The notes beneath the pieces were generated by a model, which made no database searches, was not told the DNA's origin, and saw only the letters and a program-made list of their open reading frames with translations. Below, piece by piece: positions 1,953 to 37,309 of a stretch of DNA of 64,000 bases. Position 1 is the stretch's first letter, and each line of letters starts with the position of its first letter. This DNA comes from Georgenia wutianyii (lineage in GTDB: Bacteria > Actinomycetota > Actinomycetes > Actinomycetales > Actinomycetaceae), in assembly GCF_006349365.1 (NCBI RefSeq), contig NZ_CP040899.1:1550001-1614000 (forward strand). The letters run 5' to 3'. The translations under genes and the position numbers were made by a program.

Positions 1953-2605
1953 TGGCCACCGAGAAGGCGTTCCTCGAGCTCGAGGGCGGCGAGCGGCTGC
2001 CCTGCCTGTTCAACCCGGCCCAGCTCGCCATCTCCCGCTCCAACGACTGGACCGGCGAGGCGCTGCCCGGCCGGGGCGTGCCCCGGCTGCGCTACGCCGG
2101 CGCCCAGCCCGGCTGGATGCACCTCGAGCTGTTCTTCGACACCACCCACGACGGTTCCGCCGTCACCCGGTACACCGGCAGGATCCTCGCCCTCATGGAC
2201 GTCGACCCCACCCTGCCGGGCTCGGACGAGACGACGAGCAACGCCCGCCCGCCGTACGTCACGTTCCACTGGGGTGACCTGCACTCCTTCAAGGCCGTCG
2301 TCGCCGACCTGTCCATGGCCTTCACCTACTTCGCCTCCAACGGCACCCCGCTGCGCGCGACCGTCGCGCTGACGCTGCGCCAGTACGAGCCCTCGCAGGC
2401 CTTCGGCCCGCAGAACCCCACCTCCGGCACACCCGACCCGCACCGCACCCACCGCGTCCGGCCGGGGGAGACGCTCGACCGGATCGCCGCCACCTACTAC
2501 GGCGACGCCACCTCCTGGCGCCGGCTGGCCCTGGCGAACGGCGTCCAGGACCCCCTCGCCCTCCGGGCCGGCACCGTCCTGTCGATCCCGAGGGCCGACG
2601 CATGA
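1952..2605 (+). CDS. eCIS tube-cap/baseplate hub protein with C-terminal LysM domain (Afp7/Pvc7-like)
   Basis: A 217-aa protein. The first ~150 residues resemble the tube-initiator family of contractile injection systems (LPCLFNPAQLAISRSNDW near the start), and the last ~55 form a LysM domain (HRVRPGETLDRIAATYYGD). In eCIS particles and R-type phage tails, this protein links the inner tube to the spike hub, and LysM folds are used for that contact. It follows the low-complexity gene by a 1-base overlap and precedes the spike gene with a 4-base overlap, the order usual for this position. Function is inferred from domain content and gene order; the LysM part is clear. Confidence 0.85.
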   Translation: MATEKAFLELEGGERLPCLFNPAQLAISRSNDWTGEALPGRGVPRLRYAGAQPGWMHLELFFDTTHDGSAVTRYTGRILALMDVDPTLPGSDETTSNARPPYVTFHWGDLHSFKAVVADLSMAFTYFASNGTPLRATVALTLRQYEPSQAFGPQNPTSGTPDPHRTHRVRPGETLDRIAATYYGDATSWRRLALANGVQDPLALRAGTVLSIPRADA

Positions 2606-4395: not shown

Positions 4396-4805
4396 TGACC
4401 GGACACGGTACCGACTTCATCGGCAGAGGCTTCGGCTGGCCGCTGCGGGTCGACCACACCGGAGCGATCCGGCTCACCGAGGGCGCGGAGGATCTCGAGC
4501 GCTCGATCCGCATGGTGCTGCTCACCGCCCCGGGCGAGCGGCTCATGCGGCCCCAGTTCGGCTGCCGGATCTGGGACCTGCTGTTCGAGCCGGTCAACGC
4601 CAACCTCCTCGGCCTCGTCTCCCAGGCCGTGCGCGACGCACTCGCCCAGTGGGAGCCGCGCGTGGAGGTCGAGGACGTGCGCCCCGTCCAGGACGACACC
4701 GACTCCGCCCTCGTGCGGATCGAGATCACCTACCGGGTCAAGGCCACCAACGACCGCCGCAACCTCGTCTACCCCTTCTACGTCATCCCCCGCGAGGAAT
4801 CCTGA
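4395..4805 (+). CDS. GPW/gp25-family baseplate wedge protein (Afp9/Pvc9-like)
   Basis: A 136-aa protein with the gp25/GPW lysozyme-like fold signature: an N-terminal GRGFGWPLRVD stretch, then a LLTAPGERLMRPQFG core and a C-terminal strand segment. gp25 sits at the baseplate-sheath boundary and helps start sheath polymerisation. The start codon overlaps the spike stop by one base and the stop overlaps the baseplate J start by one base, so translation is coupled through the operon. Length is normal for the family. Confidence 0.9.
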   Translation: MTGHGTDFIGRGFGWPLRVDHTGAIRLTEGAEDLERSIRMVLLTAPGERLMRPQFGCRIWDLLFEPVNANLLGLVSQAVRDALAQWEPRVEVEDVRPVQDDTDSALVRIEITYRVKATNDRRNLVYPFYVIPREES

Positions 4806-6748
4806 TGCCGCTGCCCCCGCCGAACCTCGACGACCGCTCCTTCCAGGACATCGTCGACGAGACGAAGCGCCTCATCCCCCGGTTCACGCCCGAGTGGACC
4901 AACCACAACGTCTCCGACCCGGGCGTCGCGCTCATCGAGCTGTTCGCCTGGATGAGCGAGATGGTGCTCTTCCGCGTCAACCAGGTGCCCGACAAGCTGC
5001 TCGTCCACTTCCTCAACCTCGTCGGCATCGAGCAGTTCCCGCCCACCGTGGCCCGGGCCGACCTCACCTTCTGGCTCTCCGCCCCCGCCGAGCAGTCCGT
5101 CCACGTCCCCGCCGGGACGCAGGTCTCCACCGTCGGCACCGCGGAGACCGACGCCGTCGTCTTCGCCACCGTGGACGAGGCGGTGGTCTCGGCCCCCCGG
5201 CTGCGGGCGGTCCACACCTGCCGCGCCGGGCAGGAGCAGACGACCGACGGGTGGGACGACCTCACCTACCCGGGCTCCTCGCTCACCGCGTTCACCTCCG
5301 TCCCGCTGGCCCCGGGTGACGCCACCTACCTCGGCTTCGCCGAGCCGCTGGCCGGCCTCGTCGTGCGGCTGTCGGTCGCCGCGACGGCGGAAGGGGTCGG
5401 GGTGGACCCGCTCAACCCGCCGCTCGCGTGGGAGGTGTGGGGCGGGGAGGCATGGCTGCCGGTCCGGGTCCACGTCGACACCACCGGTGGCCTCAACCGC
5501 GACGGCGACGTCGTCCTGCGCGTCCCGGCCGCCCACGAGCCGCTCACGCTGGGCGGGGAGGCCGCGCACTGGCTGCGCGCCCGCCTCCTGCACCCCGTGC
5601 CCGGTCAGCCGACGTACCAGGCCTCCCCGCGCATCAGGTCGCTGTCCGCGCACGCCGTCGGCGTCACCGTGCCGGCCGAGCACGCCCAGGCGATGGCGCG
5701 TGAGTCCCTCGGCCGGTCGGTCGGGGTGCCCGCCCAGTCCTTCCGGCTGTCGGCCGCGCCGGTCGCCCGCCGCCGGGAGGGCGAGGAGGTCCGGGTCATC
5801 GACCACACGGGTGTCACCGAGTGGACCGAGGTCGAGGACTTCGCCGCGTCCGGCCCCACGGACCGGCACGTCGTGTGGGACTCGGCGTCGGGCGAGGTGC
5901 GCTTCGGCCCGCGGGTGCGCCACCCCGACGGCACCGTGCGGCAGCACGGCGCGATCCCGCCCGACGGTGCGGAGGTCGTCGTCACCGGTTACCGGCACGG
6001 GGGAGGGGCCGTCGGCAACGTCGGCGCCGGCACGCTCACCGCGCTGCGCTCCACGGTCCCCTTCGTCTCGAGCGTCGAGAACCTCGCCCCCGCCACCGGA
6101 GGCGTCGACGGCGAGAGCGTCGAGGAGGCCAAGGTGCGCGGGCCGCTGTCCCTGCGCACCGGCGAGCGCGCGGTCACCGCGCGCGACTACGAGCGGCTCA
6201 CCCGCGAGACCTCCGTCGAGGTGGCCCGCGCCCGCTGCCTCCCGGCCCGGGGGACGGGGGCCGTGCGGGTCCTCGTCGTGCCGCAGGTGCGCACCTCGCC
6301 GCTCACCCACCGGATCGACGACTACGCCCTGGACCGCCGCCTGTACGAGCAGATCGCCGCCGTGCTCGACGAGCGCCGTCCCGTCGGCGTCGCCGTCGAG
6401 GTCGGCACCCCCTACTACCAGGGGGCCAGCGTCGCGGCGCTCGTGCGGGCGCTGCCCGGCCGGCCCGCGGCGCTCGTGAGCCAGCGGGTGAGCGACGCCG
6501 TCGCGCGCTTCGTCAACCCGCTCACCGGCGGGCCCGACGGCACCGGGTGGCCCTTCGACACCGACCTGTCGGCCGTGACGGTCGCCCAGCTGGTCGAGTC
6601 CGTCGAGGGTGTCGAGCGGGTCGAGGAGATGGTCCTCTTCGAGTACGACCTGCGCACGGGCCGGCGTCTCGGTGTCGGCCGCGACGCCCTGCGGCTGGAC
6701 CCCCACTCGCTGTTCCTCTCCGCGAAGCACCAGGTCGTGGTGCGGTGA
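4805..6748 (+). CDS. Baseplate J/gp6-family wedge protein (Afp11-like)
   Basis: A 647-aa baseplate assembly protein J homologue. The start ATG at 4805 is chosen because it overlaps the gp25 stop by one base; an open frame upstream is only a shadow of gp25. Visible family features are an N-terminal helix pair (FTPEWTNHNVSDPGVALIEL) and a C-terminal region with RDYERLTRETSVEVARARC, typical of baseplate J. The protein forms the outer wedge ring that triggers sheath contraction. It overlaps the next gene by 4 bases. Confidence 0.9.
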   Translation: MPLPPPNLDDRSFQDIVDETKRLIPRFTPEWTNHNVSDPGVALIELFAWMSEMVLFRVNQVPDKLLVHFLNLVGIEQFPPTVARADLTFWLSAPAEQSVHVPAGTQVSTVGTAETDAVVFATVDEAVVSAPRLRAVHTCRAGQEQTTDGWDDLTYPGSSLTAFTSVPLAPGDATYLGFAEPLAGLVVRLSVAATAEGVGVDPLNPPLAWEVWGGEAWLPVRVHVDTTGGLNRDGDVVLRVPAAHEPLTLGGEAAHWLRARLLHPVPGQPTYQASPRIRSLSAHAVGVTVPAEHAQAMARESLGRSVGVPAQSFRLSAAPVARRREGEEVRVIDHTGVTEWTEVEDFAASGPTDRHVVWDSASGEVRFGPRVRHPDGTVRQHGAIPPDGAEVVVTGYRHGGGAVGNVGAGTLTALRSTVPFVSSVENLAPATGGVDGESVEEAKVRGPLSLRTGERAVTARDYERLTRETSVEVARARCLPARGTGAVRVLVVPQVRTSPLTHRIDDYALDRRLYEQIAAVLDERRPVGVAVEVGTPYYQGASVAALVRALPGRPAALVSQRVSDAVARFVNPLTGGPDGTGWPFDTDLSAVTVAQLVESVEGVERVEEMVLFEYDLRTGRRLGVGRDALRLDPHSLFLSAKHQVVVR

Positions 6749-7326
6749 GCACCGACCACTGGCTGTTGCGGCAGCTGCCCTCGGGCATGCTCACCGACGA
6801 CTTCTTCGTCCGCTTCGCCTCGATCTTCCAGGAGCAGGCCGGCACCCTCCTCGCCCACGCGCACAACCTCCCGCACCTGGCCGACCCGTCGGTGACGCCG
6901 GCCGGCATGCTGCGCTGGACGGCGTCGTGGATCGGGCTGTCCGGGGTCGACGGCGACCAGCCCGAGGAGTGGCAGCGCCGGTACGTCGCGGGCTGCGCCC
7001 GGGTGCTCGCCTGGCGCGGCACGCGGCGCGGGCTCACCGGGTTCCTCGAGCTCCTCAGCGACGGCCCCGCGCTCGTGCGCGACGGCGGCGGGGTGTGGCG
7101 GGAGGACGGCGCCCCCGACGACACCTGCTGGGTGGTCATGGAGGTCGCCTCGACCGGGCTGCTCGAGGAGGCCGACTTCGTCCGGCTGGTGCTCGACGAG
7201 GTGCCCGCCCACGTCCGCGCCGAGCTGTGGGTGGCCGGGCGGCAGGTCTTCCCCGACGACGCGCCGGCGACCGCGCCGGCCCGGCACCGCGCCGCCGTGG
7301 GCGGGCGAGGGAGTGAGGAGCAGTGA
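6745..7326 (+). CDS. Tail protein I (P2-I)-like baseplate wedge protein (Afp12-like)
   Basis: A 193-aa protein starting at a GTG that overlaps the baseplate J stop. It has the phage tail protein I pattern: a run of Leu/Phe helices around residues 10-60 (MLTDDFFVRFASIFQEQ) and the WRGTRRGLTGFLELLS segment common to this family. In contractile systems it completes the baseplate wedge with gp25 and baseplate J. The C-terminal ~30 residues are low complexity. Afp12 homologues are often larger, so this is the compact actinobacterial form. It is followed by a 4-base overlap with the zinc-ribbon gene. Confidence 0.8.
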   Translation: MSTDHWLLRQLPSGMLTDDFFVRFASIFQEQAGTLLAHAHNLPHLADPSVTPAGMLRWTASWIGLSGVDGDQPEEWQRRYVAGCARVLAWRGTRRGLTGFLELLSDGPALVRDGGGVWREDGAPDDTCWVVMEVASTGLLEEADFVRLVLDEVPAHVRAELWVAGRQVFPDDAPATAPARHRAAVGGRGSEEQ

Positions 7327-7891: not shown

Positions 7892-10800
7892 TCAGGGCTC
7901 CGCCAGGACCGTGAAGGGCACCGGGGAGGACGTGCTCGGGGCGCGGCCGGGGTCCCGCGGGAAGAGCTGGGCGTAGGCGCTGTAGGTCCCGGGCGCCGCC
8001 GTCCACGTGAGGCCGACGGACCCGGAGGCGTCGGCCTCGAGCACCGTGCCGGCAGGCCCGGTGACGACGACGCGTACGACGCCCGGGACGTCCGGGGTCA
8101 CCGTGAAGGTCACGGAGCCGGCGCCGGCTGCCGCGGAGAGCGCGACGCTCGACGGCGCCGTCCCCGGGTCGGCCGCGAGGACGAACGCCGAGGCCGCCGT
8201 CGCCGAGGGCGCGAAGCCCGTGGCGCCGGAGTACGTCGCGGAGAACTCGTGGATCCCGGCGGTGAGGCCGGGGACGACGGCGGTGGCCGTGCCCGAGGTG
8301 AGCGCGACGGGCCCCAGCGCCCGGCCGTTGTGGACGAACGTCACCGTCCCGCCCGCCGCCGGCGGGGAGGATGCCACCCGGGCGGTGAGGGTGACGGACC
8401 CGCCGGTGGTCACCGTGGCGCGGTCGGCCGCGACCGTCGTCGTCGTGACGGCGGGCAGGACGACCGGGGTGTCGCTCGTCAGCCGGAAGGCGGCGACGGC
8501 CTCGGAGGCCGGGCCGGTCGCGTCGACCTCGACGGTCTGGCTGGCGAGGGTCCAGCCCGGCACGGCGGTGGCCGTGACGGTGTAGCGGCTCCCGGCGGGC
8601 AGGTACACCGACTCCTGCGTCCCGCCCACGCCGACGCTGAGCTCGGTGCCGGGCGTGTCCCCGGTCGAGCGGACGGTCACCCCGAGGGTGGCCGGGGGCT
8701 CCGGCCCGTCGGCCGTCGCCGAGACCCGCAGGCGGACCTCGCGGACGTCGATCGTCGCCGTCGTGCCCGAGACGCTCGCCCGGTGCGTGCCGAGGTGGCC
8801 CACCGGGCCGGAGGCGACCGCCTCCCAGTCCGGTCCTCCGCCGCTCACCGGGGGGACCTGGTTGAAGACCGTGCGGTAGGTGCCGTCGGCGGCCCGGGCG
8901 ACGGGCTGCGGGGCGAGGGAGCCGGCCGGGCCGCCGGGCGGCTCCAGGCGCACGAGCATGCCGGTCAGGTCGAAGCCGTTGACCGAGCGCACCGTCACCT
9001 CGACCTGCCGGGCGGCGGCGTACAGGACGATGTCCACGGTGAGGACCTGCCCGCGCTCGACCTTCACCGACCGGCTCGCGGCCGGGCCGAAGGAGGGGTG
9101 CTCGGCGGTGAGGACGTACTCGCCGTCGGGGACGCCGTCGAAGGTGAACCGGCCCGCCCCGGCGCCGCTGCTCCCGGTCTCCACCGTCTCGGTGTCGCCC
9201 GATGCGGACTGGAGCGTGACCGTGGCCCCGCCGACCGGTGCGGCGGCCCCACCGCCGGCCTGGCCCATGATCGTGCCCGTCACCGTGTTGCGCCGGGAGG
9301 CGATGGACAGGCTCACCGACGTCGCCTCACCGCTCGCGGGGACGGTGATCGTCGTGACGAGCGGGGCGTAGTCGCCGCCGGTCAGGCTCACCGTGTAGAC
9401 GCCCGGGACGACGTCGGCGAAGTAGTACCGGCCGTCGGGGGAGTCGAGGTCGGCCCCGGTGTACCGCCGCGAGCCCTGGAGGAGGGTGACGCTCAGGCCC
9501 TCGACCAGGCCGTCGGCGGCGGCGTCGGGGTCGTAGACGTCGACGTAGACGTCCACCGGGAGCGGCGCCAGGGCGACGTCGAGGGGCGCGGGGGAGGAGC
9601 CCCCCGAGACGAGCACCTCGACCCGGTTGGGCTGGGAGGCGCCCGTGTCGCTCACGTACCCGGGGGCCGCGAAGGTGAGCACCCAGGGCTGGTCGGACTC
9701 GCGCAGCCCCTCGCGGGAGTCGGTGCCCGTGATGCGGAACGAGCCCGTCGTGTCCGTCGTGGCGAGGAACGGCTCGCCGCCGTCGGGTGGCCGGGCGCTC
9801 ACCGTCACGCCCGCGAGCGAATCGCCGCCGGTGCTCCGCACGGTGCCGGAGATGGTGCCCAGGCGCCGGACCTCCACGGGGACCGGCTCGGCCTGTGCCG
9901 GGGCCACGGTGATGGTCGAGACCGTGAACTCGTGCCCGGCGGCCTGGACGTAGACCTCGTAGGTGCCCGGTGCCACGGGACCGAAGTTCACCCGGTTGGT
10001 GCCGACCACCGCCCGGGCGGTCCGGTCGCCCTCCTGGGGGCGCATGAGCGTGACGACCGGGTCGAGCACCCGGGTGCACCCTCCGGCGGCGCACGAGCCG
10101 GTCTGCACCACCTCGACGACGAGCTGGCCGTACTGCGCGAGCGAGACCGTGATGCTCACGGGGTCGGTCACGCCCTCGCCGCGCGGGGCGACGAGCACCT
10201 GCACGGGGTTGGTCTCGTAGCCGCCCAGCTCGGGGGTGATCGTGTAGAGACCGGGCCGGATGAGCGTGCCCCGGCCGTACTCGCCGGGGACCGCGAAGGG
10301 CTGGGCGAGGTCGTCGTGCCAGACGTAGGTCGTGGCCGCGCCGGAGCCGTTCGTCGCGACCCGGGCGCGCTGGGCACCGGGCGGCGCCTGCGTGACCGTG
10401 AGCGCGAGGTTGGCGCGGTCGGCGTCCGCGACGCCGTCGACGAGGATCTCGACCGGCCGGCCGAGCGGCTCGAGCTCGAGTGTCACGGCGGGCTCGGTGA
10501 TCGCCACGTCGGTCAGGCTCAGCGGGGCGTAGCGTCCGAGCGGGTCCTCGACGGTGATCGAGACGCGGTCGCTGACGAAGGTCATCCGGCCGGTCGGGTC
10601 GCCCGGGACGTCGGGAGAGCCGTCCTCCGCCACCACCTCGAACTGGCCCGCCGCGCCGGTGGTCATCGTCACCGTCTCGCGGACCGGGACGAGGCCCGAG
10701 TAGCCGGTGATGCCGTTGACGGAGACGGACACACCCTCCACCGGCGGTGTGCCGCCCGCCCCGAGGTTGGTGAAGACCGCCCCGTCGACCGCGTAGCCGG

Positions 10801-13800
10801 TGCCGCCCGTGAGGACGAGCTGGCGGGTGACCTCCTGGTTGAGCCCCACGGTGAGCACCGGCGTGGCCCCCGTGTAGGTACGGCCGCTGCCCGGCGGCGT
10901 GTAGGCGACCTCGAGGCGGTAGCTGCCCGGCGTGAGGTGGGTGAGGCCGGCCAGCCCGGTGGGGCCGGTGGTCACCGCGTCCGGGGTGTCGCCGGCGAGG
11001 CGCACCGGCGTGACCGCGGCACCGGCCGCCGGCTCCAGGACGCCGCCACCGCGGTCGTAGAGCACGGTGAGGTCGACGCGGCCCAGGCGGTTGAGCGTGG
11101 CGTCGTACCGGCGCAGCTCGCCCGGCTCCAGCACGAGACTCACCGCGGCCACCGGCAGGTACTCGCTGCCGTCAGGGGGCCGCACGGCCACCGACCAGGG
11201 GCCCGAGCTCAGCTGCTCGAGGGTGTAGGACCCGTTCGTGGCCAGGCCGGCGCAACGCGCCCCGGTGGGGACCGTGGCCCCGGAGACCGTGCACACACCG
11301 CCGGAGTCGACCGTGCAGTCGGCGTCGGCGGCGGCGCCGGTGCCGGGGACGGCGAGGACGCAGGTGCCGTCGGGGACCATGCCGACCCGCGTGGAGACGA
11401 CACCCGTGACGGACGGCGAGCGGTAGAGGGCCACGGGGTTGGCCTGGACCGTCTCGCCCATGGGTACCTGGACGGTCACCCGCCCCGGCTCGTAGCCCGG
11501 GGCCGAGACGTCGACCTGGTACAAGCCCGGCAGCAGCCCCGGCTGGTCCGCCGGCGGCAGGGTGTAGGGCAGGTCCGGCGCCACGGTCACCGTGACGGTG
11601 CGGGTGGTGCCGTCGAGGGTCTGCGCGCGGGTCGTCACGGTGACGACGCAGTCCTCCGGATCCGTCCCGGCCGGGCACTCGATCTGGCCGTTCGTGCTCG
11701 CGTCGGACACCGCACCCTGGACGCGGGCCGTGTCGAGCAGGCCCTCGTCGGCCACCGGGGTGAGGACGAGGTCGGCCGACGCCGCCCCGCCCGCCGCGAC
11801 GGTGACCGGGGCGAGACCGGTGAGGTGGCCGAAGAGCTCGGCCTGCAGCACGTAGTCGCCGGGGGCGATGCCGTTGAACCGGAAGGAGCCGCGCGCGTCG
11901 GACGCGCTCATCGTCTTGTACGTGCCGGAGTCCCCGCGCAGGGTGAGGCCGGCGCCACCCAGGCCGACGCCGTCGGGGGTGGCGACGGTGCCCTGGACGA
12001 CCCCGGAGGAGACGCCGAGGCGCACGTCGACGGTCGTCGCGGCGCCGTGGCCGAGCTCCACCTCGCGGGTGTGGGACGCGTACCCGTCCCCGGTGACGGT
12101 GACGGTGTACCGCCCGGGCACCGGCAGGTCGGCGAGGACGTACCGCCCGGAGAGGTCGCCGGTGGTGGTGGAGGCGGTGCGGGTGGTGGTGCCGTCGGTG
12201 GCGGTCACCGTGATCCCGCCGAGCCCGCCGACGGCGCCGAGGGAGTCGGGGCCGGTGACGACGCCGGTGAGGGTGCTGACGGCGGTGTCCAGCGCGAGGT
12301 CCACGCGCTCGGCGCCCGCTGCCGCGAGCGGGACGAGCGCGGCCTCGGTGCCGAGCCCGTTGCCGCTGGCGGTGACGAGGTAGGTGCTCGGGGTGGACAG
12401 GCCCTCGACGGCCCAGGCGCCGACGTCGCCGGTCGTGTTCGTGCTGGTCGTGATGGTGGTCGTGCCGTCGGTGATGGTGATGTCCACGCCGCCGACGGGG
12501 TGGCCGCCGGGGCCAGTGGTGGTGCCGGAGAGCCGGCCCGCGCCGGCCACGAGCTCGACCTCGAGCCCGGCGGCGGCCTCGGCGCCGGACATGACGAAGC
12601 GCTGGGTCTGGTAGCCCGGCTTGGACAGGGTGATGAGGTAGTTCTGGGTTGCGGGCAGGCCGGCGAAGGCCCAGGTGCCGTCCTCGTGGGTGGAGGTGCT
12701 GCGGGTGGCGTCCAGCGGCTCGGTCCGTGTGACGGGCAGGGCGCCCGAGGGCACCTTGCCGGCCGGGTCCGCCGGGGGCCGGGCAGCGCGGAAGAGGCGG
12801 ACGGAGGTGCCGAGCGGCCCGCCGCCGGTCGCACCCGCGGCACCCGCCGGCGGGGCGCCGGTCGTGGCCGGGACGGTGCCGGTCTGCTGGTCGAGCAGCG
12901 ACGCGGGGGCGATGTCGACGCGCACCCCGGCGGGGTCGGAGCCGGTGACCGTGCCGCCGATGCGCACGCCCTCGGGGGCCCCGGCCCCGTCGTCAAGCAG
13001 GTCGTCCGCCCCGCCGTCGCCGGTGCCCGTCGCGCCGTCGCCGCCGACGTCGTCCCCGGTGCCCCCGGCGACGACGTCGGCCTGGTCGGGGCCGGCGACC
13101 TGCTCGGCGACCCACGGCACGCCGAGGCCGAGGGCGCCGGCCCACACGGCCAGCGCCGTGACGACGGAGAGCACCCGCAGGACCCCGGACGTGAGCAGGG
13201 GGCGCGAGGTCAGCGTGCCGTGGACGCGGGCCGGCGCCTGGCGCCCGCGCGCGGTCACGGTGAACGCGAGCCGGTTGTGGTGCCCGACGACGCGCGGGCG
13301 CCGGACGGACAGCCGCGCCGGCACCCGGACGGTGCCGTGCGCCGGGACGGTGACGTGCCGGCGGTCGAGGTGCAGGCTCAGCCCGCGCTCGGTCGTGCCG
13401 CCCATCTCCAGCGGGACGGGGACGTCGCCGCCGTTGGCGACGACGACGGAGACGGTGCGGCGGCGCACGGCGCGCGTCTCGGCGGGCTCGACGCTGAGCA
13501 CGACCTCGCTCGGGGCGTCGACGCGCAGGGTGCCCTCCGTGACCGTCCGCGCGGTGGGCCGCCCGCCCGGCCGGTGGGCCTCGACCGCGAGCGCGAACGG
13601 GTAGTCGCCGGGGACGGCGCCCGCACCGACCGGGACGGCGAGCTCGACGGTGACAGTCGCGTCGGAGGCCACGTCGGCCACACGGACGGGCGCGGGGAGC
13701 CAGTCGATCCCGAGCGCGGTCACCGTGAGGTCGCGCGGACCGTCGGCGAGGTTGCGCACGTGGACCCGCACGGTGGCGGCCTGCCCGGCGGGCGCGTGCG

Positions 13801-13852
13801 CGCCGGGCACGACCGTGACGGTCGGGGCGCTGGTGGGGAGGTAGGTGCTCAA
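7892..13852 (-). CDS. Giant single-pass membrane protein with carboxypeptidase-regulatory/Ig-like repeats
   Basis: A 1986-aa protein starting at a TTG (13852) with GAGG eight bases upstream. Residues 1-~215 are two Ig-like (CARDB/NEW3-type) domains with no signal peptide. A single membrane helix lies near 221-248 and is followed by a very acidic Gly/Asp linker. The next ~1700 residues are carboxypeptidase-regulatory/SpaA-like beta domains in tandem, marked by repeated patterns such as G-x-Y-x-L and PGTYEVYV, and end with an Ig-like domain containing TVTFVHNGRALG. Basic residues before the helix suggest N-in, C-out topology. It lies 7 bases after a smaller paralogue and converges on the baseplate operon. 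A stalk, adhesin or docking role is inferred. Confidence 0.8.
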   Translation of the reverse strand: MSTYLPTSAPTVTVVPGAHAPAGQAATVRVHVRNLADGPRDLTVTALGIDWLPAPVRVADVASDATVTVELAVPVGAGAVPGDYPFALAVEAHRPGGRPTARTVTEGTLRVDAPSEVVLSVEPAETRAVRRRTVSVVVANGGDVPVPLEMGGTTERGLSLHLDRRHVTVPAHGTVRVPARLSVRRPRVVGHHNRLAFTVTARGRQAPARVHGTLTSRPLLTSGVLRVLSVVTALAVWAGALGLGVPWVAEQVAGPDQADVVAGGTGDDVGGDGATGTGDGGADDLLDDGAGAPEGVRIGGTVTGSDPAGVRVDIAPASLLDQQTGTVPATTGAPPAGAAGATGGGPLGTSVRLFRAARPPADPAGKVPSGALPVTRTEPLDATRSTSTHEDGTWAFAGLPATQNYLITLSKPGYQTQRFVMSGAEAAAGLEVELVAGAGRLSGTTTGPGGHPVGGVDITITDGTTTITTSTNTTGDVGAWAVEGLSTPSTYLVTASGNGLGTEAALVPLAAAGAERVDLALDTAVSTLTGVVTGPDSLGAVGGLGGITVTATDGTTTRTASTTTGDLSGRYVLADLPVPGRYTVTVTGDGYASHTREVELGHGAATTVDVRLGVSSGVVQGTVATPDGVGLGGAGLTLRGDSGTYKTMSASDARGSFRFNGIAPGDYVLQAELFGHLTGLAPVTVAAGGAASADLVLTPVADEGLLDTARVQGAVSDASTNGQIECPAGTDPEDCVVTVTTRAQTLDGTTRTVTVTVAPDLPYTLPPADQPGLLPGLYQVDVSAPGYEPGRVTVQVPMGETVQANPVALYRSPSVTGVVSTRVGMVPDGTCVLAVPGTGAAADADCTVDSGGVCTVSGATVPTGARCAGLATNGSYTLEQLSSGPWSVAVRPPDGSEYLPVAAVSLVLEPGELRRYDATLNRLGRVDLTVLYDRGGGVLEPAAGAAVTPVRLAGDTPDAVTTGPTGLAGLTHLTPGSYRLEVAYTPPGSGRTYTGATPVLTVGLNQEVTRQLVLTGGTGYAVDGAVFTNLGAGGTPPVEGVSVSVNGITGYSGLVPVRETVTMTTGAAGQFEVVAEDGSPDVPGDPTGRMTFVSDRVSITVEDPLGRYAPLSLTDVAITEPAVTLELEPLGRPVEILVDGVADADRANLALTVTQAPPGAQRARVATNGSGAATTYVWHDDLAQPFAVPGEYGRGTLIRPGLYTITPELGGYETNPVQVLVAPRGEGVTDPVSITVSLAQYGQLVVEVVQTGSCAAGGCTRVLDPVVTLMRPQEGDRTARAVVGTNRVNFGPVAPGTYEVYVQAAGHEFTVSTITVAPAQAEPVPVEVRRLGTISGTVRSTGGDSLAGVTVSARPPDGGEPFLATTDTTGSFRITGTDSREGLRESDQPWVLTFAAPGYVSDTGASQPNRVEVLVSGGSSPAPLDVALAPLPVDVYVDVYDPDAAADGLVEGLSVTLLQGSRRYTGADLDSPDGRYYFADVVPGVYTVSLTGGDYAPLVTTITVPASGEATSVSLSIASRRNTVTGTIMGQAGGGAAAPVGGATVTLQSASGDTETVETGSSGAGAGRFTFDGVPDGEYVLTAEHPSFGPAASRSVKVERGQVLTVDIVLYAAARQVEVTVRSVNGFDLTGMLVRLEPPGGPAGSLAPQPVARAADGTYRTVFNQVPPVSGGGPDWEAVASGPVGHLGTHRASVSGTTATIDVREVRLRVSATADGPEPPATLGVTVRSTGDTPGTELSVGVGGTQESVYLPAGSRYTVTATAVPGWTLASQTVEVDATGPASEAVAAFRLTSDTPVVLPAVTTTTVAADRATVTTGGSVTLTARVASSPPAAGGTVTFVHNGRALGPVALTSGTATAVVPGLTAGIHEFSATYSGATGFAPSATAASAFVLAADPGTAPSSVALSAAAGAGSVTFTVTPDVPGVVRVVVTGPAGTVLEADASGSVGLTWTAAPGTYSAYAQLFPRDPGRAPSTSSPVPFTVLAEP

Positions 13853-13859
13853 CGGTGCC

Positions 13860-16427
13860 TCACGGGGTGGTCAGGTCGGCGGTGGCGGCCTCGCTCGCGC
13901 CGAGGGTGACCGGCGCCGAGGTCACGAGTGGCGCGCCGGTGGGGGAGCGGCGCAGCTCGACGATGTAGTGCGCCGGTGCGTCGACGTCGGCGAACGCGTA
14001 CCGGCCCCCGCGCGCGGTCGTCGTGGCCACCGGTGGTGCGGCGGTGCCGTACTGGGAGGCGAGGTAGAGGTGGACGACGGCGCCCTCGGCGGCCTCGCCG
14101 GCGAGCGAGACGCGGCCGGAGATCGACGCGGGCGCCACGAGCACGGGGTCGATCCGTAGCCGTTGGCTCGCCCCGACCGTGACGATCTGCGACGTCGGCG
14201 CCGTGCCCCGGCGGGAGAAGGTCACCGTGTAGGTGCCGGGGACGAGGTCCTCCAGGACGTAGGTGCCGACGGCGTCGGCCGGGGTCGACGCCGTCGTCAC
14301 CGTGTACTCGTTCGTCCCGGACGTCGCGGTGACGCGGACGTTTCCCGCCGGTGCCGCGGAGCCGGCGGCCGCGTCGCGGTACTGGGAGACGGTGCCGGTG
14401 AGCACGCCCGTGGCCGAGCGCATCACCGCGTCCACGCGGTCCGGCGCCGGTGCGCCGGCGGTGACGTTGCCGAAGCCGTCGATGCTCACCGAGACCACCT
14501 GGGAGGCGAGGTCGGCCCGGGTGAAGGTCACCGTGTACGTGGAGGGGATGCGTAGCCCTGCCACCGACCAGCTGCCCACGGGGTCGGTGGACTGGGTGAC
14601 GGTCTGGCGGGTGCTCGACCCGTCGGTGACGGTGACGTTCACCCCGCCGCCGCCGTCGGGCGCGGTCACGGTGCCGCCGAGGGAGCCCGCGGCGGCACCG
14701 AGGGTGGCGGCGACGCCGTCGAGCTGCTGGCCGGCACCGAGGTTGAGGCTGAGGGTGGCGGGGGCGTGGCCCTCGGCGGTGACGATGACGGTGAAGGTGC
14801 CCGGCGTGGGCAGGCCGCGCAGCGTGAAGGAGCCGACCTCGCCCTCGGTGAGGGAGACCGTGCGGGCGGTGACCTCGCCGGAGGTCGCGGTCACCGTCGC
14901 CCCGCCGAGCGGGCCGGTGGCCCCCGTGACGCGGCCGGAGATCGCGCCGTCGCCGTCGAGGAGCTGGAGCTGCAGGTCGGTGCGGTCCTCCCCGGCGGCC
15001 ACGTCGACCCGCTGCACCTGCTCGCTGTAGCCCGGCTTGGCGACGACGACGTCGTAGACGGCGGGGGAGGGGATGTCGGCGAGCTCGAAGGCGCCGTCGG
15101 ACCCGACCGGGACGGTGCGCACGACGGCGCCGCGCACCCGCCCGGCGCCGGTGTCCTCGCTCGCGCCGAGCTGTCCGAGGAGCGCGGGGGAGTCGAGCGG
15201 CAGCTCGAGGGTGGCGGTGGCGCCCGCGACGTCGTCGCCGCTCACGGTGCCGCCGACGGTCGCCGGGACGCCGCCGAGGAGGACGGCCAGGCCGGCGGCG
15301 CTCTCCCCGGGGCCGACCTCGACGGACGCGGCCTCCGCGTTCGTCGCCGCTGCGGGGTACCAGACCTCGTCGAAGCCGGCGCCGCGGAAGCGGAGCTTGT
15401 AGCTGCCGGCGGGCAGCGAGGAGACGGCCCACGCCCCGGTCTCTCCCGAGGCGGTCGTGGCCACGGGCGCGGAGGTGTCAGTCACGTCGAAGGCCTCGAC
15501 GGACACGCCGGCCACCGGCTCCCCGCTGGAGAGCAGCAGGGCGAGCCCGGACAGCGAGGAGGTGCCGGTGGTCGCTACCTGCTCGCGGGCCTGGGAGACC
15601 TGGAGGGCGAGGTCGCGGTCGGCGGCCGAGCGGGCGGCGACGGTGTTGAGGGCGGTGACGATGACGAGGGCGAAGACCGTCACCGCGAGGAGCAGCCCTG
15701 CCAGGCTGACCGAGGCGCGGGACAGTACCGGCCGCTGGACGAACACGCCCATCGCCGCGGGAGGGGTGTCGGGCTGGGTGACGGCGCGGGCGGCGTCCCC
15801 GGGCGGGGCGTCGCGCCGCCTGCGCGGGGCGGGCTGGGCGCGCTCGTCGGCGCGCAGCTCGAAGGCCCGTGCCACGGGGGAGCCGAGCAGCCGCCGCTTG
15901 CCGCTGACGGTGAGGGTGGCGGTGAGGTGCTCGCCGGGGGCCAGCCGTAGGCGCGAGGGCTCGAGGTGGAAGTCGAGCCGGTGCTCGGGGTCGGTGCCCA
16001 CGATCGCGGCGTCCACCAGGGTGTTGCCGGTGTTCTCCACGACGACGCCGTAGGCGGCCCGCCGCCCGCCGGTCACGGTGCCGGGCTCGAGGCGCACGCC
16101 GAGGCGCGGTGCGCCCGCGACGTCGACGACGAGCTCCTCGATGGCGATCGCCTGCTCGCCGGTGACCTCCCGGACCTGGACGGCCAGTCGGCGCTCACCC
16201 GCGGGCAGCCCCGGCGGCAGGCGCAGCTCGAGGGCGACCGTCGTCGACTCCCCTGGGAACAGCCGCGGCTCGGGGTCGCTCAGGCGCACCCACGCCGGGT
16301 CCGCGCCGAGCACGCGCACCGCGTACCCGCCGATGACGTCACCGGTGTTGGTGACCGTGACGATGACCGGCTCCCCGGTGCCGGCGGTCAGCCGACGGGG
16401 CTCGAGCTCCACGCGCACGTCAGCCAC
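13860..16427 (-). CDS. Membrane-anchored carboxypeptidase-regulatory repeat protein (second paralogue)
   Basis: An 855-aa protein whose GTG start (16427) overlaps the stop of the upstream paralogue by 8 bases. Residues 1-~215 are Ig-like domains (VTVTNTGDVIGGYAVRVLG). A basic stretch with RRRR precedes one membrane helix at ~231-262 (SLAGLLLAVTVFALVIVTAL). The outside part has roughly six carboxypeptidase-regulatory domains with motifs such as GTFTVIVTAEGHAP and PGTYTVTFSRRG. The segment DEVWYPAA is shared with the third paralogue, supporting common origin. The charge pattern again suggests N-in, C-out. It is part of a reverse operon with the DUF4255 gene. Its molecular partner is unknown. 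Confidence 0.8.
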   Translation of the reverse strand: MADVRVELEPRRLTAGTGEPVIVTVTNTGDVIGGYAVRVLGADPAWVRLSDPEPRLFPGESTTVALELRLPPGLPAGERRLAVQVREVTGEQAIAIEELVVDVAGAPRLGVRLEPGTVTGGRRAAYGVVVENTGNTLVDAAIVGTDPEHRLDFHLEPSRLRLAPGEHLTATLTVSGKRRLLGSPVARAFELRADERAQPAPRRRRDAPPGDAARAVTQPDTPPAAMGVFVQRPVLSRASVSLAGLLLAVTVFALVIVTALNTVAARSAADRDLALQVSQAREQVATTGTSSLSGLALLLSSGEPVAGVSVEAFDVTDTSAPVATTASGETGAWAVSSLPAGSYKLRFRGAGFDEVWYPAAATNAEAASVEVGPGESAAGLAVLLGGVPATVGGTVSGDDVAGATATLELPLDSPALLGQLGASEDTGAGRVRGAVVRTVPVGSDGAFELADIPSPAVYDVVVAKPGYSEQVQRVDVAAGEDRTDLQLQLLDGDGAISGRVTGATGPLGGATVTATSGEVTARTVSLTEGEVGSFTLRGLPTPGTFTVIVTAEGHAPATLSLNLGAGQQLDGVAATLGAAAGSLGGTVTAPDGGGGVNVTVTDGSSTRQTVTQSTDPVGSWSVAGLRIPSTYTVTFTRADLASQVVSVSIDGFGNVTAGAPAPDRVDAVMRSATGVLTGTVSQYRDAAAGSAAPAGNVRVTATSGTNEYTVTTASTPADAVGTYVLEDLVPGTYTVTFSRRGTAPTSQIVTVGASQRLRIDPVLVAPASISGRVSLAGEAAEGAVVHLYLASQYGTAAPPVATTTARGGRYAFADVDAPAHYIVELRRSPTGAPLVTSAPVTLGASEAATADLTTP

Positions 16428-18639
16428 CCGCCAGGGCGAGGTTGCGCGAGGCGGTCGCGCCGGCCGTGACACGCACGACACCGGTGCTCTCCACGCGCCC
16501 GTCGATCGCCACCGAGACGGTGTAGGTCCCGGCGGGCAGGTCGGCGAAGAGGTAGTAGCCCGGCGTGTTGGCACCGCCGGGTGAGGACGGCGGGCGCGTG
16601 GTCGTCGTCGTGGTCCGGGTGGTGCGCCCGTCGGTGGCGGTGACGTCGACGCCGACGGCACCCCGGCCACCGTCGGTCACGATGCCCTCGATCCGCCCGG
16701 TGGCGGGGTGGAGGGTGACGGCGACCGGGGCGGGTGGGCCGTCCGTGAGGTCGACCGGGACCGAGACCGAGCGGTAGCCGGGGTGGGTGAAGGTGAGGGT
16801 GTAGGTGCCCGGGGCCAGGCCGCTGAGGGTGAAGCTGCCGACGTCGCCGGCGGTGAGGGTCGTCGCGGCGAGGGTGGTCTCGGCCCCGCCGGCGGTCACG
16901 GCGACGCCGCCCAGGCCGGCGCCGGTGGGCAGGGTGACGCGGCCGGTCACGGTGCCGGCGCCGCCGCGCAGCACGACGGCGAGGTCGGTGTGGGACTGTC
17001 CGGCCGTGAGGTCGACGACGGCGCTCGCGCTCGTGTAGCCCTCGAGGTCGAAGGTGAGGACGTAGGTGCCCGGTGTCGGCAGGCCGGGGACGACGAAGGT
17101 GCCGACCTGGCCGACGGTCGGGGTGCCGACGACGACCTCGGCGTCCGCGACCGTCGTGCGGACCGTGACGCCGCCGAGCGGCAGCACGCCGTCGGTCACG
17201 GTGCCGCTGATCTGCCCGGCGCCCGCCGCGAGGCGCACGTGCTGGGCGAAGCGCTGCTGGCCGCCGGTGATGCGCTCGGTGATGGTCGTCGGGGCGTACC
17301 CCTCGGCGGTGAACGTGAGCTCGTAGGTGCCCGGGGCGGGCAGCCGCGGCAGCACGTACGCGCCGTCCGGCCCGGCGGTGGTCTCGACGACGACCTCCTC
17401 ACCCTGCTCGGTCCACGTGGCGACCGCCCGCACGGTGGTCTCCACCGGCTGGGTCGTGTCCCCGACGTCGACGGTGCCCGCGATCTCACCGGGGTGCCCG
17501 ACGAGCGCGACGTCGAGCCCGCCGGTCAGCGTCTGCGCCTCGGCGGTGACCGTGTCGGCCCCCGCGGCGTCGGGCGCCGCGGGGTACCAGACCTCGTCGT
17601 AGCCGTCGGCCGCCACCCGCAGGAGGTAGCCGCCGGGGAACAGGCCGGCGATCTCGAAGCTGCCGTCGGCCTGGGTCGCGGCCGACCCGACGAGCACGAG
17701 GCCGTCGCGGCCGTGGCGCCACGCCTCGGTGGTGATGCGCCCCAGGCCCACGCCGTCGGTGTCGCCGACGACCGTGCCCGTGAGCGAGCCGCCGACACCG
17801 GCCGGCAGCAGCCCGTCCTTGGCGACGGCACCGGCGGGGGCGTCCGAGCCACCCGCGCCGTCCTGCCCCGTGGCGGCGAAGAAGGACGCGGGGGCCGTGC
17901 GGGTCATCGGGTCGGTGCCGAGCATGCCGAGGATGCCGAGGAGGAAGATGCCCGCCCAGACCGCGATGATGCCGAGCAGGACGAGCGCCGTGAGCAGGCC
18001 GCGCCCGACGGCGGGCCGCTGGGTGAAGGTGAGCGCGACGTGCTGCTCGACCCCCTCGGCGGTCGCGGTGACCCGCAGCGGCCGCTCGACGTCCGAGCCG
18101 AGCAGGTGGCGCGGACCGCGCACCTGGACGGCGCACGCGGCGACCGCGCCGGGCTCGACGTGTACCGCGGAGGGCGTGATCCGCGACTCGACGCTGCGGT
18201 CGGTGTCCGTGGCGCGCAGCGCGACGTCGAGCGGCACGTTCCCGGTGTTGCGCACCGCGAGCTCGAAGCCCGCGCGGCGCCCGGCGCGGACGGCCGAGGG
18301 CACCGCGGCGAGGGAGAGCGCGGGTCGTGCGCCGACGACGACGTCGAGGTCGTGGTGGGCGGGCACCGAGCCGGGTGCCTGCCCGTCGACCTCCACCGTC
18401 ACCGGGTGGGTGCCCGCTGGGAAGGTGTCGGGGACCGTGATCCGCACGTCGATCCGGCCGGTCGCGTCGGGGAAGAGCGCGAGGACGGGCGGGCTGGTCG
18501 TCACGTGGTCGGCCGGCAGCCCGAGGACCCGGGCGGAGATCGCGTCGATGACGGCGCCGGTGTTGACGACGTCGACGGGGACCTCCCCGGTCTCACCGGG
18601 CTGGACGCGCAGGACGTCGGTGGTGCTCAGTGCTCTCAT
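16420..18639 (-). CDS. Membrane-anchored carboxypeptidase-regulatory repeat protein (third paralogue)
   Basis: A 739-aa protein starting at ATG 18639 (MRALSTTDVLRVQPGETGEV), 7 bases after the DUF4255 stop. It has the same plan as its two neighbours: N-terminal Ig-like domains (~1-200), a membrane helix at ~213-238 (LLTALVLLGIIAVWAGIFLL), then about five carboxypeptidase-regulatory domains (FPGGYLLRVAADGYDEVWYP, PGTYELTFTAEGYAP, PGTYTLTFTHPGYRS). No cleavable signal peptide or sortase motif is seen. Being first of three paralogues directly behind a known eCIS gene argues that all three serve the particle, perhaps as a membrane scaffold. Confidence 0.8.
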   Translation of the reverse strand: MRALSTTDVLRVQPGETGEVPVDVVNTGAVIDAISARVLGLPADHVTTSPPVLALFPDATGRIDVRITVPDTFPAGTHPVTVEVDGQAPGSVPAHHDLDVVVGARPALSLAAVPSAVRAGRRAGFELAVRNTGNVPLDVALRATDTDRSVESRITPSAVHVEPGAVAACAVQVRGPRHLLGSDVERPLRVTATAEGVEQHVALTFTQRPAVGRGLLTALVLLGIIAVWAGIFLLGILGMLGTDPMTRTAPASFFAATGQDGAGGSDAPAGAVAKDGLLPAGVGGSLTGTVVGDTDGVGLGRITTEAWRHGRDGLVLVGSAATQADGSFEIAGLFPGGYLLRVAADGYDEVWYPAAPDAAGADTVTAEAQTLTGGLDVALVGHPGEIAGTVDVGDTTQPVETTVRAVATWTEQGEEVVVETTAGPDGAYVLPRLPAPGTYELTFTAEGYAPTTITERITGGQQRFAQHVRLAAGAGQISGTVTDGVLPLGGVTVRTTVADAEVVVGTPTVGQVGTFVVPGLPTPGTYVLTFDLEGYTSASAVVDLTAGQSHTDLAVVLRGGAGTVTGRVTLPTGAGLGGVAVTAGGAETTLAATTLTAGDVGSFTLSGLAPGTYTLTFTHPGYRSVSVPVDLTDGPPAPVAVTLHPATGRIEGIVTDGGRGAVGVDVTATDGRTTRTTTTTTRPPSSPGGANTPGYYLFADLPAGTYTVSVAIDGRVESTGVVRVTAGATASRNLALAGG

Positions 18640-18646
18640 GCGGGCG

Positions 18647-19303
18647 TCACGACCGCCCCTCGGTGAGCGCGGAGCGGACCAGGCCGCCACCCGAGCGGCG
18701 CACCGGGCCGGCGGCCTCCGCGGCGGCGTCGCGCGCCGTCGCGGGGCGGTGCGGGACGGGGGCGGCGAGGCCCTCGACCGAGGAGACGCCGGTGGCGGCG
18801 GGCTGCCAGCCGAAGGCGTCGCTGGCCATCGTGACGACGAGGGTGAACGCCGCGCGGTGGTTGCTGCCCAGCGCCGCCCACAGCTCGCGCGGACGGTTGA
18901 CCTCGTCGCTCGCCAGGGAGAGCTGGACCGAGGAGGTGAGCGTGGCCGGCAGGTGCGCCGCGGGGACGGTCTGGTGGGAGAGGAACCGGGTGAGCACGTC
19001 ACCCAGGAGCTGGTGCTCGTCGCGGGTGCTGCCCGCCCACGCGCTCACGAGGTAGGACAGCTGGACGAGCGGGAGCGAGGGGCGCCGCTCGGTGCCGCCG
19101 GGGCCGCTGCGCGCCGCCGGTGGCAGCGGGGGCAGCGGGCTGCGTGCGACGGCGTAGAGGAAGAGGTTGACCGTGACCCGGTTGACCTGCGCCGACCACG
19201 CGCCCGACGGCGCCTCGAAGGAGACGTCGCCGACCTCCTCGGGCAGCGGCAGCGTGGCGCGCAGGAGCGCCTCGAGGCCGTCCTCGACCGTGGGAATGAG
19301 CAC
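18647..19303 (-). CDS. DUF4255 (Pvc16 N-terminal-like) eCIS protein
   Basis: A 218-aa protein beginning at GTG 19303, with AGGAG a few bases upstream. The N-terminal half matches the DUF4255 pattern found in nearly all eCIS clusters: VEDGLEALLRATLP at the start, VNLFLYAV, then LVQLSYLVSAW and a helical segment around HQLLGDVLTRFL. Family members (Afp16/Pvc16) cap the tube and sheath and set particle length. The C-terminal ~45 residues are low complexity. A 17-base palindrome lies upstream and may control this gene and the three membrane proteins that follow. Confidence 0.85.
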   Translation of the reverse strand: MLIPTVEDGLEALLRATLPLPEEVGDVSFEAPSGAWSAQVNRVTVNLFLYAVARSPLPPLPPAARSGPGGTERRPSLPLVQLSYLVSAWAGSTRDEHQLLGDVLTRFLSHQTVPAAHLPATLTSSVQLSLASDEVNRPRELWAALGSNHRAAFTLVVTMASDAFGWQPAATGVSSVEGLAAPVPHRPATARDAAAEAAGPVRRSGGGLVRSALTEGRS

Positions 19304-19394
19304 GTGGGATCTCCTGGAGGGCGCGGGCCCTGGGCGCACGACAGGGCAGGACGATGGCGAGAGCGAGCGTAGGAACGGGCGGCCGGGACGGGCA

Positions 19395-19414: not shown

Positions 19415-19807
19415 TCAGGCCTCTGTGGTGCGGACCGCTCCCGGGTTGAGGATCTGGACGACCCCGCCGTAGGCGCACGCACACGTGGCACCGGCGGTGA
19501 GCGCCGGACTGCCGGCGACCGTGGTCGCCGCCGCCCCGCCCGTCCACGGCGTGCCGGTGGCCGGGACGCAGGGCATCGGGGTGAGCACGCCGAGCGCCGC
19601 GGCCGTCGCGGCGGCGACCATCGGGTTGGAGGGAGAGCTGCACATGCCGAAGGGCAGGATGTTGACCAGCGGGACGGAGTCGGTCACGGTGGCCGCAGGG
19701 CGGCCCTCGACGAGCACGCGCGAGACCGGCAGCACGTTGAGCGGGGCGGGGGACAGGCCCATGCTGCACTGGAGCATGGCGGTGGAGACGGCGGCTGGAC
19801 GGCCCAT
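19415..19807 (-). CDS. PAAR-like protein (DUF4280 family)
   Basis: A 130-aa protein, Gly/Ala/Val-rich, with the PAAR-like layout. An N-terminal AMLQCSMGLSPAPL stretch holds one conserved Cys, short beta hairpins follow, and Cys residues recur near residues 55, 79, 110 and 112 (FGMCSS, PMPCVP, ATCACAYGG). PAAR and DUF4280 proteins form the sharpened tip on the VgrG trimer and can carry effectors. Its presence in an eCIS cluster with a VgrG supports that role. It sits 18 bases downstream of the lipoprotein gene and ends 4 bases before the upstream palindrome of the next unit. Confidence 0.75.
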   Translation of the reverse strand: MGRPAAVSTAMLQCSMGLSPAPLNVLPVSRVLVEGRPAATVTDSVPLVNILPFGMCSSPSNPMVAAATAAALGVLTPMPCVPATGTPWTGGAAATTVAGSPALTAGATCACAYGGVVQILNPGAVRTTEA

Positions 19808-19825: not shown

Positions 19826-20290
19826 TCACAGCGCGCTGTCCCGCACGGTGGCGGTCAGTGGCTCGCCGGTCGTCGTGACGAAGCACGTGACCTCCCGGTC
19901 CCCGTCCTGCTCCCAGCTGCGCGCGGAGGGCAGGAGGTAGGTGAGGAAGAGGCTCGAGTCGCGGTAGTCCACGCCGACGTAGCCGGCGAACTCCGCCGCG
20001 CAGGAGCCGTCGGCGAAGTCCTTGAGCGCGCCGTCGCCGGGGTAGCCCTCCGTGCCCTCGCCGGTGACGTAGTCGACGACGGCGTAGGCCTCCTGGTCGT
20101 GGGCGCTGTCGCACGGCACCCGCGTGATCTCGGTGAGCTCGGCGACGATCTCCTCCGGCGCGAGGAAGCACTCACCCGGTGCGGCGTCGAACACCGACAC
20201 CTGCTCGGGCCCCTGCCCGAACAGGGAGCAGCCCGTGAGGGCCGCGCCCGTGAGTACCGCCACGGCGGCCGGCGCCAGGCGTCTGCGCAT
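19826..20290 (-). CDS. Lipoprotein with septum-formation-type domain
   Basis: A 154-aa protein with a lipoprotein signal peptide: basic start, hydrophobic run, and lipobox LTGC at residues ~18-21. The mature part resembles the actinobacterial septum-formation domain: DAAPGECF, then VPCDSAHDQEAYAV, then C-terminal DREVTCFVTT, with Cys residues that could pair outside the membrane. AAGGAGATGGG precedes the ATG. It lies upstream of the PAAR-like gene on the same strand and is divergent from the eCIS ATPase, so it probably belongs to the cluster. Its role there is unknown. Confidence 0.7.
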   Translation of the reverse strand: MRRRLAPAAVAVLTGAALTGCSLFGQGPEQVSVFDAAPGECFLAPEEIVAELTEITRVPCDSAHDQEAYAVVDYVTGEGTEGYPGDGALKDFADGSCAAEFAGYVGVDYRDSSLFLTYLLPSARSWEQDGDREVTCFVTTTGEPLTATVRDSAL

Positions 20291-31771: not shown

Positions 31772-31836
31772 CCGGGCGCGCGCCCGGCGCGCCGGGTGAC
31801 CTACCGTGGGGGCAGTCGAGCAGGGAAGGGGCCGTG

Positions 31837-33474: not shown

Positions 33475-33487
33475 GCGGGGTGCCGCG

Positions 33488-35056: not shown

Positions 35057-35076
35057 GCGCGGTGCCCGGCGCGGGC

Positions 35077-35679: not shown

Positions 35680-35870
35680 GCGGTGACTCTGCCAGGTTCT
35701 CGGGCGTCGGTCCGGCACCTTGCGCGGGCGGTCGTCCGCCCGCTCCGACGTCCCGCTGGGGAGCCGCGGCTGGACCCGTTCGCATGGCCGTCTTCCACCC
35801 CGACACCGCCGCGCTCGGCCTGGGTCGGCTCTGTACGCTGGCCCCTCCGACCTGCGCCGTGGGAGCTGCC

Positions 35871-37226: not shown

Positions 37227-37309
37227 CAGGTGCCACGCACCGGGCGACCGGCCCGCACACCGCCGCGGCGAACTAGGATCGACGGGTAGTCGAGAGGGAG
37301 GCGGTCACC

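Follow-up and report, generated by a model that had tools for sequence, protein, structure and literature searches.

How a cytoplasmic CIS reaches the Gram-positive envelope and fires there is a question opened only recently, by CisA, and an eCIS locus of Georgenia wutianyii raises it afresh: what do three tandem proteins (A, B and C, hereafter the triad), each with a single membrane helix, do beside the genes of an injection particle? The window analysed here – the whole stretch of 64,000 nucleotides – corresponds to C1:1550001-1614000 of a genome that consists of one contig of 3.45 Mb. Our preferred answer, to which we give a rough probability of 0.5, is that A, B and C are eCIS bitopic proteins of the same kind as Sco4256 of Streptomyces coelicolor and form a membrane landing site together with a tail-anchored zinc-ribbon protein encoded nearby; they are probably a tether between the eCIS particle and the envelope.

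The families matched around the triad – CIS_tube/LysM, VgrG-like, gp25, Baseplate_J, Tail_P2_I, PAAR, AAA and eCIS_core – mark the locus as an eCIS cluster (Table 1), and A, B and C are co-directional with the Pvc16_N (DUF4255) gene; the Pfam matches of the neighbours thus agree on both counts with an earlier, sequence-only reading of this DNA. Pvc16_N and C are separated by 7 bases, C and B overlap by 8, and B and A are again separated by 7 bases. GC at the third codon position is 0.94-0.98 in the three frames; those holding B and C were longer as found and were trimmed to the starts given by that reading. Directly before the CIS_tube/LysM gene lies a 641-aa frame (27-1952, + strand) with a proline-rich start and without a Pfam match; in Streptomyces, the baseplate genes are reported to be closely preceded by a tape-measure-like effector gene (PMC11126660). 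A Pup-proteasome region (31237-38880), with a proteasomal ATPase and two Pup-ligase family genes, lies a few kb from the eCIS cluster.

Table 1. Features of the eCIS locus, in window positions unless another locus is named
Feature	Position	Strand	Remarks
Sheath-like and tube-like frames	upstream of the window, L003:11773-13341 and from 13421		named via matches in other eCIS loci
CIS_tube/LysM protein	1952..2605	+	
VgrG-like spike	2602..4395	+	Phage_GPD and Phage_base_V
gp25 baseplate protein	4398..4805	+	start approximate
Baseplate_J protein	4806..6748	+	start approximate
Tail_P2_I baseplate protein	6745..7326	+	start not fixed
Tail-anchored zinc-ribbon protein, 183 aa	7323..7874	+	two zinc ribbons (four CxxC), C-terminal TM
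Protein A	7892..13852	-	1986 aa; two Ig-like domains, TM helix, ~1737-aa ectodomain
A, sub-parts	Ig-like domains approx. 13175-13852; TM approx. 13106-13174	-	
Protein B	13860..16427	-	855 aa; two Ig-like domains, TM, ~590-aa ectodomain
B, sub-parts	Ig-like domains approx. 15717-16427; TM approx. 15633-15716	-	
Protein C	16420..18639	-	739 aa; two Ig-like domains, TM, ~497-aa ectodomain
C, sub-parts	Ig-like domains approx. 18001-18639; TM approx. 17914-18000	-	
Pvc16_N (DUF4255) cap/terminator gene	18647..19339	-	directly upstream of C
DUF4280/PAAR-like protein	19415..19807	-	
Predicted lipoprotein, Septum_form match	19826..20290	-	lipobox-like LTGC, read by eye
AAA ATPase	20468..22375	+	
eCIS_core protein, 1036 aa	22458..25568	+	conventional cargo candidate

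The coordinates and the common plan that the sequence-only reading gave for the three paralogues – an Ig-like N-part, one TM helix and a carboxypeptidase-regulatory array – are borne out by the open reading frames, an alignment, Pfam and hydropathy, and the motif DEVWYPAA is indeed common to two of them, B and C. The aligned N-parts share 26 invariant columns of 283. The main hydrophobic core, at residues 227-249 in A, 238-265 in B and 214-242 in C, gives one TM helix between the N- and C-parts, with one additional marginal hydrophobic window in B (at 377, score 1.6). Pfam places CarboxypepD_reg above its cut-off in A (204.6 bits, 6 stretches), B (145.1, 5) and C (141.5, 5), and the A ectodomain has a Big_3_5 match close to its end. 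Carboxypeptidase-regulatory arrays are common in surface proteins.

Structure prediction, proposed as a check by the same reading, agrees with this plan. The N-part of C, modelled from an alignment of 63 sequences, forms two Ig-like sandwiches that lead into one helix at 213-241 (mean pLDDT 96.5), and B as a whole is modelled as beta sandwiches in a row, at a mean pLDDT of 76.9 and a pTM of 0.35, so that only the local folds are meaningful. A fold search for an informative relative of the whole-B model returned generic beta-sandwich chains only. Among solved structures, the N-domain resembles HYDIN-type axonemal central-pair proteins, CEP192, PapD-type chaperones, a sialidase Ig domain and WxLIP. 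The first two are cytoplasmic and the other three exported, so the fold does not tell on which side of the membrane the domain lies.

As to sidedness, the hydropathy scan of residues 1-60 finds no signal-peptide-like start in the window's A, B and C, again as first read, and 1 of 66 proteins reaches 1.8 there in a 15-residue window. The sequence-only reading had also derived an N-in orientation from basic residues before and acidic residues after the helix; the rule holds clearly for A (net charge +5/-7 over the 30 aa before and after), but C has only +1/-2 and B is neutral (+1/0). Across 65 proteins (row L073 dropped), net charge before and after the helix is +1.18/-0.42, being greater before it in 40, equal in 9 and less in 16 (p=1.7e-4, relatedness ignored). 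The K+R count in 63 relatives has no significant inside/outside bias (before greater 28, equal 13, less 22; p=0.16), and topology therefore does not rest on charge. Cysteines are unevenly spread: in ten sequences of A and its orthologues there are 8-18 in the ectodomain against 0-3 in the N-part, and five alignment columns (726, 735, 831, 846, 867) hold Cys in no fewer than 9 of the 10 sequences, a pattern expected of disulfides outside. SCO4256 is listed in a glycoproteome as a membrane glycoprotein with one TM (PMC6593405); since the same source describes three glycoproteins as very likely intracellular, its glycosylation is support rather than proof. We infer that the N-domain lies in the cytoplasm, and stalks on the outside, as originally suggested, fit the wall- and glycan-binding domains that some relatives carry on their C-parts.

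The architecture recurs near eCIS genes in other actinobacteria. A scan with B orthologues as queries gave 47 named loci (some of them in genomes that are also in the other samples used here), in Cellulomonas, Actinotalea, Sanguibacter, Georgenia, Ruania and Pseudactinotalea and further in Jiangella, Phytoactinopolyspora, Nakamurella, Nocardioides and MAGs. Pvc16 stands beside the triad in 44 of the 47, the other three being contigs of 3.1, 7.5 and 3.4 kb, and is co-directional with it in 39 of these 44 and opposite in 5; all three N-domains (An, Bn and Cn) are present in 43 of 47. The predicted lipoprotein, which adjoins the PAAR gene and is a possible further envelope component, has a tblastn match in 26 of the 47 loci. 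Lengths are well kept in uncut three-gene loci: A has a median of 2005 aa, with 32 of 36 between 1884 and 2110 and outliers at 2636-2752 (L102-L104) and an aberrant 385 (L094), and the medians of B and C are 852 and 747 (42 each). In this survey L094 has aberrant frames (1171 and 385 aa), L096 two genes only and L112 swapped B/C labels. Nine aligned A orthologues are 31-41% identical to the window's A. Mean identity to the window is 0.48 for the ectodomain vs 0.42 for the N-domain in B, and 0.48 vs 0.43 in C; the B and C ectodomains are thus conserved like the N-domains, unlike a variable toxin tip.

Linkage to eCIS was followed with a profile of the three N-parts (A2) in a class sample of 296 genomes and an order sample of 297. 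In the class sample A2 matches 48 genomes at 1e-5, and Pvc16_N is found in 47; at 1e-9 A2 matches 39, every one of which (39/39) carries Pvc16_N, while another nine, which A2 matches only at E above 1e-9 and which lack Pvc16_N, are not counted among the 39. The order sample has A2 matches at 1e-9 in 28 genomes and Pvc16_N in 36, with both in 27 (the exception is G494) and no A2 match in 9 of the 36; its secondary hits at E 1e-10 to 1e-13 (e.g. G411:C19, G302:C23, G547:C142) lie on contigs other than that of Pvc16_N. The sequence-only reading had named homologues occurring mostly away from eCIS loci as evidence against it; what we find is the opposite in the strong-match genomes, with a minority away. 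Among the 43 homologue places from the class search (one per triad, outside G000), Pvc16_N is on the same contig within 10 kb in 32 and within 30 kb in 37, other eCIS genes are present in 2 more (L050, L061), and the fetched DNA of the remaining 4 (L047, L053, L055, L067), extra flank included, has no eCIS gene. A second eCIS-like cluster of the same genome (L004, C1:1865000-1884000), with AAA, sheath, tube, LysM, VgrG, gp25 and Baseplate_J matches, Pvc16_N at C1:1874224 and a sheath match split into two pieces, holds no triad-family member by A2 search.

A broader profile still matches 7 of the nine weak-match genomes that lack Pvc16_N (not G102 and G158), with a best E of 8.5e-14. In three of them (G019, G075:C322 and G200; L144, L145 and L146) most of the profile is covered, in frames of 394-428 aa. 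Searched with window queries, which may miss a divergent eCIS, the stretches around G019, G075:C322, G200, G289 and G494 and the further flanks of G199:C43, G123:C10, G293:C60 and G181:C643 have no eCIS core gene, the sole match being one AAA of 32% identity in G019; the relatives in G019, G075 and G200 are possibly family members with another role. Eight class genomes have Pvc16_N but no A2 match; the broader profile gives weak matches in six of these (best E 7.8e-11), in no case near the genome's own Pvc16_N by the places listed. The triad N-domain family tracks eCIS, with a minority of members away from eCIS genes.

Outside the triad, one or two shorter members per eCIS locus occur in f26 and other families, several of them between the sheath and AAA/Pvc16 genes. 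A2 recovers the f26 short relatives in eCIS loci with a best E per genome of 4e-21 to 5e-35; we infer that f26 corresponds to Streptomyces and its short relatives to orthologues of Sco4256. Leaving aside L061 and L071, which are cut, and the odd row L073, the TM of the 30 uncut short relatives is followed by 183-455 aa, with a median of about 233. Pfam identifies in 31 of them ricin lectin (6), fn3 (4), ChW (3), CDtoxinA (2), PASTA (1), LysM (1) and PG_binding_1 (1), many having no named C-domain; the named domains follow the helix in the four inspected singly (L048, L053, L063, L068), and L048 has a ricin lectin domain that overlaps its CDtoxinA match. Most of these named C-domains bind cell wall or glycans, so an envelope-facing tether fits them better than a cargo does, and they call into question the view of Sco4256-4258 as injected toxins.

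Three f55 genomes (G396, G409, G448; loci L163, L165, L166, L167) have a mini triad beside Pvc16, apparently an intermediate arrangement. Its first protein has 285-429 aa after the TM and its second, where uncut, 224-272 aa; the third gene is short and encodes a single Ig-like part, what looks by eye like a TM, and in one case CarboxypepD_reg below the Pfam cut-off. The same genomes encode a TM protein that has a single zinc ribbon and ends 1-2 aa past the TM. A further, short Ig-TM gene of about 330 aa stands amid the baseplate and spike genes in two of these f55 clusters (L165:13949-14989, L166:7948-8976).

The zinc-ribbon protein leads to CisA (Sco4242), which is reported to be bitopic and N-in, to be needed for contraction and to dock the cytoplasmic CIS at the membrane (PMC12237407), with a probable Zn-binding region before its TM (PMC10020575). 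The window's gene, directly after Tail_P2_I, holds the position of the CisA gene, and its product (CxxC at 43, 63, 107 and 121 and TM at 164, all 0-based starts) likewise has a zinc-binding Cys-rich region just before the TM. The C-terminal extracytoplasmic domain of CisA, ~150 aa (~158 aa by the published residues 310-468), is absent: 0 aa follow the TM, so that we call the protein CisA-like, for its gene position, rather than CisA. An hhalign comparison with the non-triad proteins gives 96%, over 30 columns only, as a generic zinc ribbon would. Triad and non-triad rows differ in this part: 0-7 aa follow the TM of the CisA-like protein in 31 triad rows (30 plus L083, admitted by a looser rule; L036/L092, L038/L107 and L043/L093 are loci fetched twice) vs 154-264 aa in 14 non-triad rows. 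Five non-triad loci had no CisA-like gene, L128 alone with ample DNA: that of L136 and L137 ends within 0.3 kb of Baseplate_J, and that of L132 and L134 after 2.1 and 3.5 kb. In a Baseplate_J tree of 41 rows, where the window is nearest Georgenia ruanii (80% identity), the 24 triad rows fall on one side of a branch (100/100); as they form one clade, the association of the triad with ectodomain loss may be one historical event. That the giant ectodomains replace the CisA ectodomain was considered, and is weakened by the f55 mini triad, which goes with an ectodomain-less zinc-ribbon protein.

The landing site that we prefer would work as follows. The tandem Ig N-domains would stay in the cytoplasm and contact or hold the particle; one helix per protein would cross the membrane and fix the complex there; the C-terminal arrays may face, grip or span the cell wall; and the tail-anchored zinc-ribbon protein would touch the baseplate, so that the particle is held at the envelope and firing permitted. 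Such a membrane platform, already envisaged by the sequence-only reading, is a reasonable idea, and co-inheritance with core genes, conserved ectodomains, wall-binding C-domains in relatives and co-purification favour it. Co-purification – Sco4256 and Sco4242/CisA were detected in all three particle purifications (PMC10020575) – is weak evidence, as CisA co-purified yet is not part of the cryo-EM particle (PMC12237407). Against the platform count the lumen emptying in the published mutant and the members away from eCIS. An extended version of it is tentative: a trans-envelope complex for cytoplasmic eCIS in monoderm actinobacteria, of zinc-ribbon adaptor, three Ig-TM-stalk proteins and lipoprotein, would be a separately evolved counterpart of the T6SS membrane complex, with Sco4256-4258 as a reduced form and not cargo.

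The published reading of Sco4256-4258 supplies the strongest rival, namely that the proteins are cargo, carried in the tube with the N-domain as loading signal, then ejected and inserted into a membrane by the TM helix. Beads of beta sandwiches would be narrow enough for the tube, and two of the 31 short relatives have the CDtoxinA match. Sco4256-4258 were called effectors; their deletion leaves ~85% of tubes empty, vs ~97% filled in the wild type, which was read as cargo loss, and it abolishes CIS-dependent death, phenocopying CIS loss, and the proteins are toxic in E. coli (PMC10066040). About one third of the Sco4256 family has a toxin-like or haemolytic-lectin-like C-domain (PMC10020575). 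Toxicity is not specific, however, since CisA too is toxic in E. coli (PMC12237407), and a lumen cargo of a closely related system was identified as the tape-measure-related Sle1 (PMC13277306, where no mention of Sco4256 was found), so the empty lumen could reflect a loading role; such a role of the N-domain would reconcile docking with the empty-lumen mutant. The window moreover has a separate cargo candidate in its eCIS_core protein, whereas the Pfam matches of A, B and C include no enzyme or toxin family and no eCIS_core, the usual though not universal mark of an effector. With the wall-binding domains of some relatives and the overlapped CDtoxinA match of L048 added, we regard cargo as unlikely for the triad.

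Less likely still is a tail fibre or crown, that is, a membrane-anchored part of the particle that binds a target or the cell's own membrane, like the crown of the thylakoid CIS (tCIS). The tCIS is anchored through a fibre-like protein (PMC10020575, PMC12923769), and eBAP4 fibres, which have the N-domain of that crown, carry Ig, PKD and carboxypeptidase-regulatory modules, with a Cellulomonas example (PMC12923769). Fibre genes nevertheless lie downstream of baseplate genes in ~90% of cases (PMC12923769), whereas A, B and C are on the opposite strand and adjoin Pvc16, the gene after Tail_P2_I being that of the zinc-ribbon protein; a sequence search with the N-domain profile, read up to E 1, lists no crown (7b5h). 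Least likely of all are surface stalks or adhesins merely co-regulated with the eCIS and without particle contact, a reading that draws on the type of array and on the N-domain relatives away from any eCIS gene but sits badly with an eCIS linkage and a gene order that persist across many genera, with an N-domain conserved though no signal peptide exports it, and with the co-purification of Sco4256 with particles (PMC10020575).

By its plan, the triad goes with a family already in print. Sco4256-4258 resemble one another at the N terminus and each combine a single TM with C-domains, and 47 of 94 Streptomyces strains that bear a CIS have homologues (PMC10066040); Sco4256-related proteins, whose N-domain resembles pilus chaperones by HHpred, were reported for 90% of the 105 class IId eCIS of Streptomyces and rarely outside eCIS (PMC10020575). 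The claim of a new layer of eCIS biology made by the sequence-only reading was therefore too strong, this family and CisA docking having been published (PMC10066040, PMC10020575, PMC12237407). Our searches of the open-licence literature turned up neither the triad nor any carboxypeptidase-regulatory bitopic proteins in eCIS loci, and no mention of such giant ectodomains, of a mini triad in a different family or of a CisA-like protein lacking an ectodomain. A conserved set with such long ectodomains offers tomography a large and easily deleted target.

Set against known systems, the triad shares with WxLIP (of Enterococcus faecium) and PapD-type chaperones, which are not CIS proteins, a fold and nothing that shows function, though the pilus-chaperone match of the Sco4256 family agrees with the PapD-type matches of the triad N-domain. 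With the tCIS crown and eBAP4 fibres it has in common membrane anchoring or Ig, PKD and carboxypeptidase-regulatory modules, and differs in gene position. Sco4256-4258 – placed next to the sheath (sco4253) on the strength of locus tags – share with A, B and C the N-domain plan, the one TM, an extra C-domain and the eCIS locus. By plan and gene order, A, B and C belong with them, as a distinct variant of a family published as toxin-like cargo: a three-gene block with carboxypeptidase-regulatory ectodomains. With CisA the common element is the notion that a bitopic protein can dock a cytoplasmic CIS; A, B and C differ from it in their Ig N-domain, the zinc-ribbon protein occupies its gene position, and a CisA-like protein without an ectodomain suggests that the outward-facing function can be arranged in more than one way.
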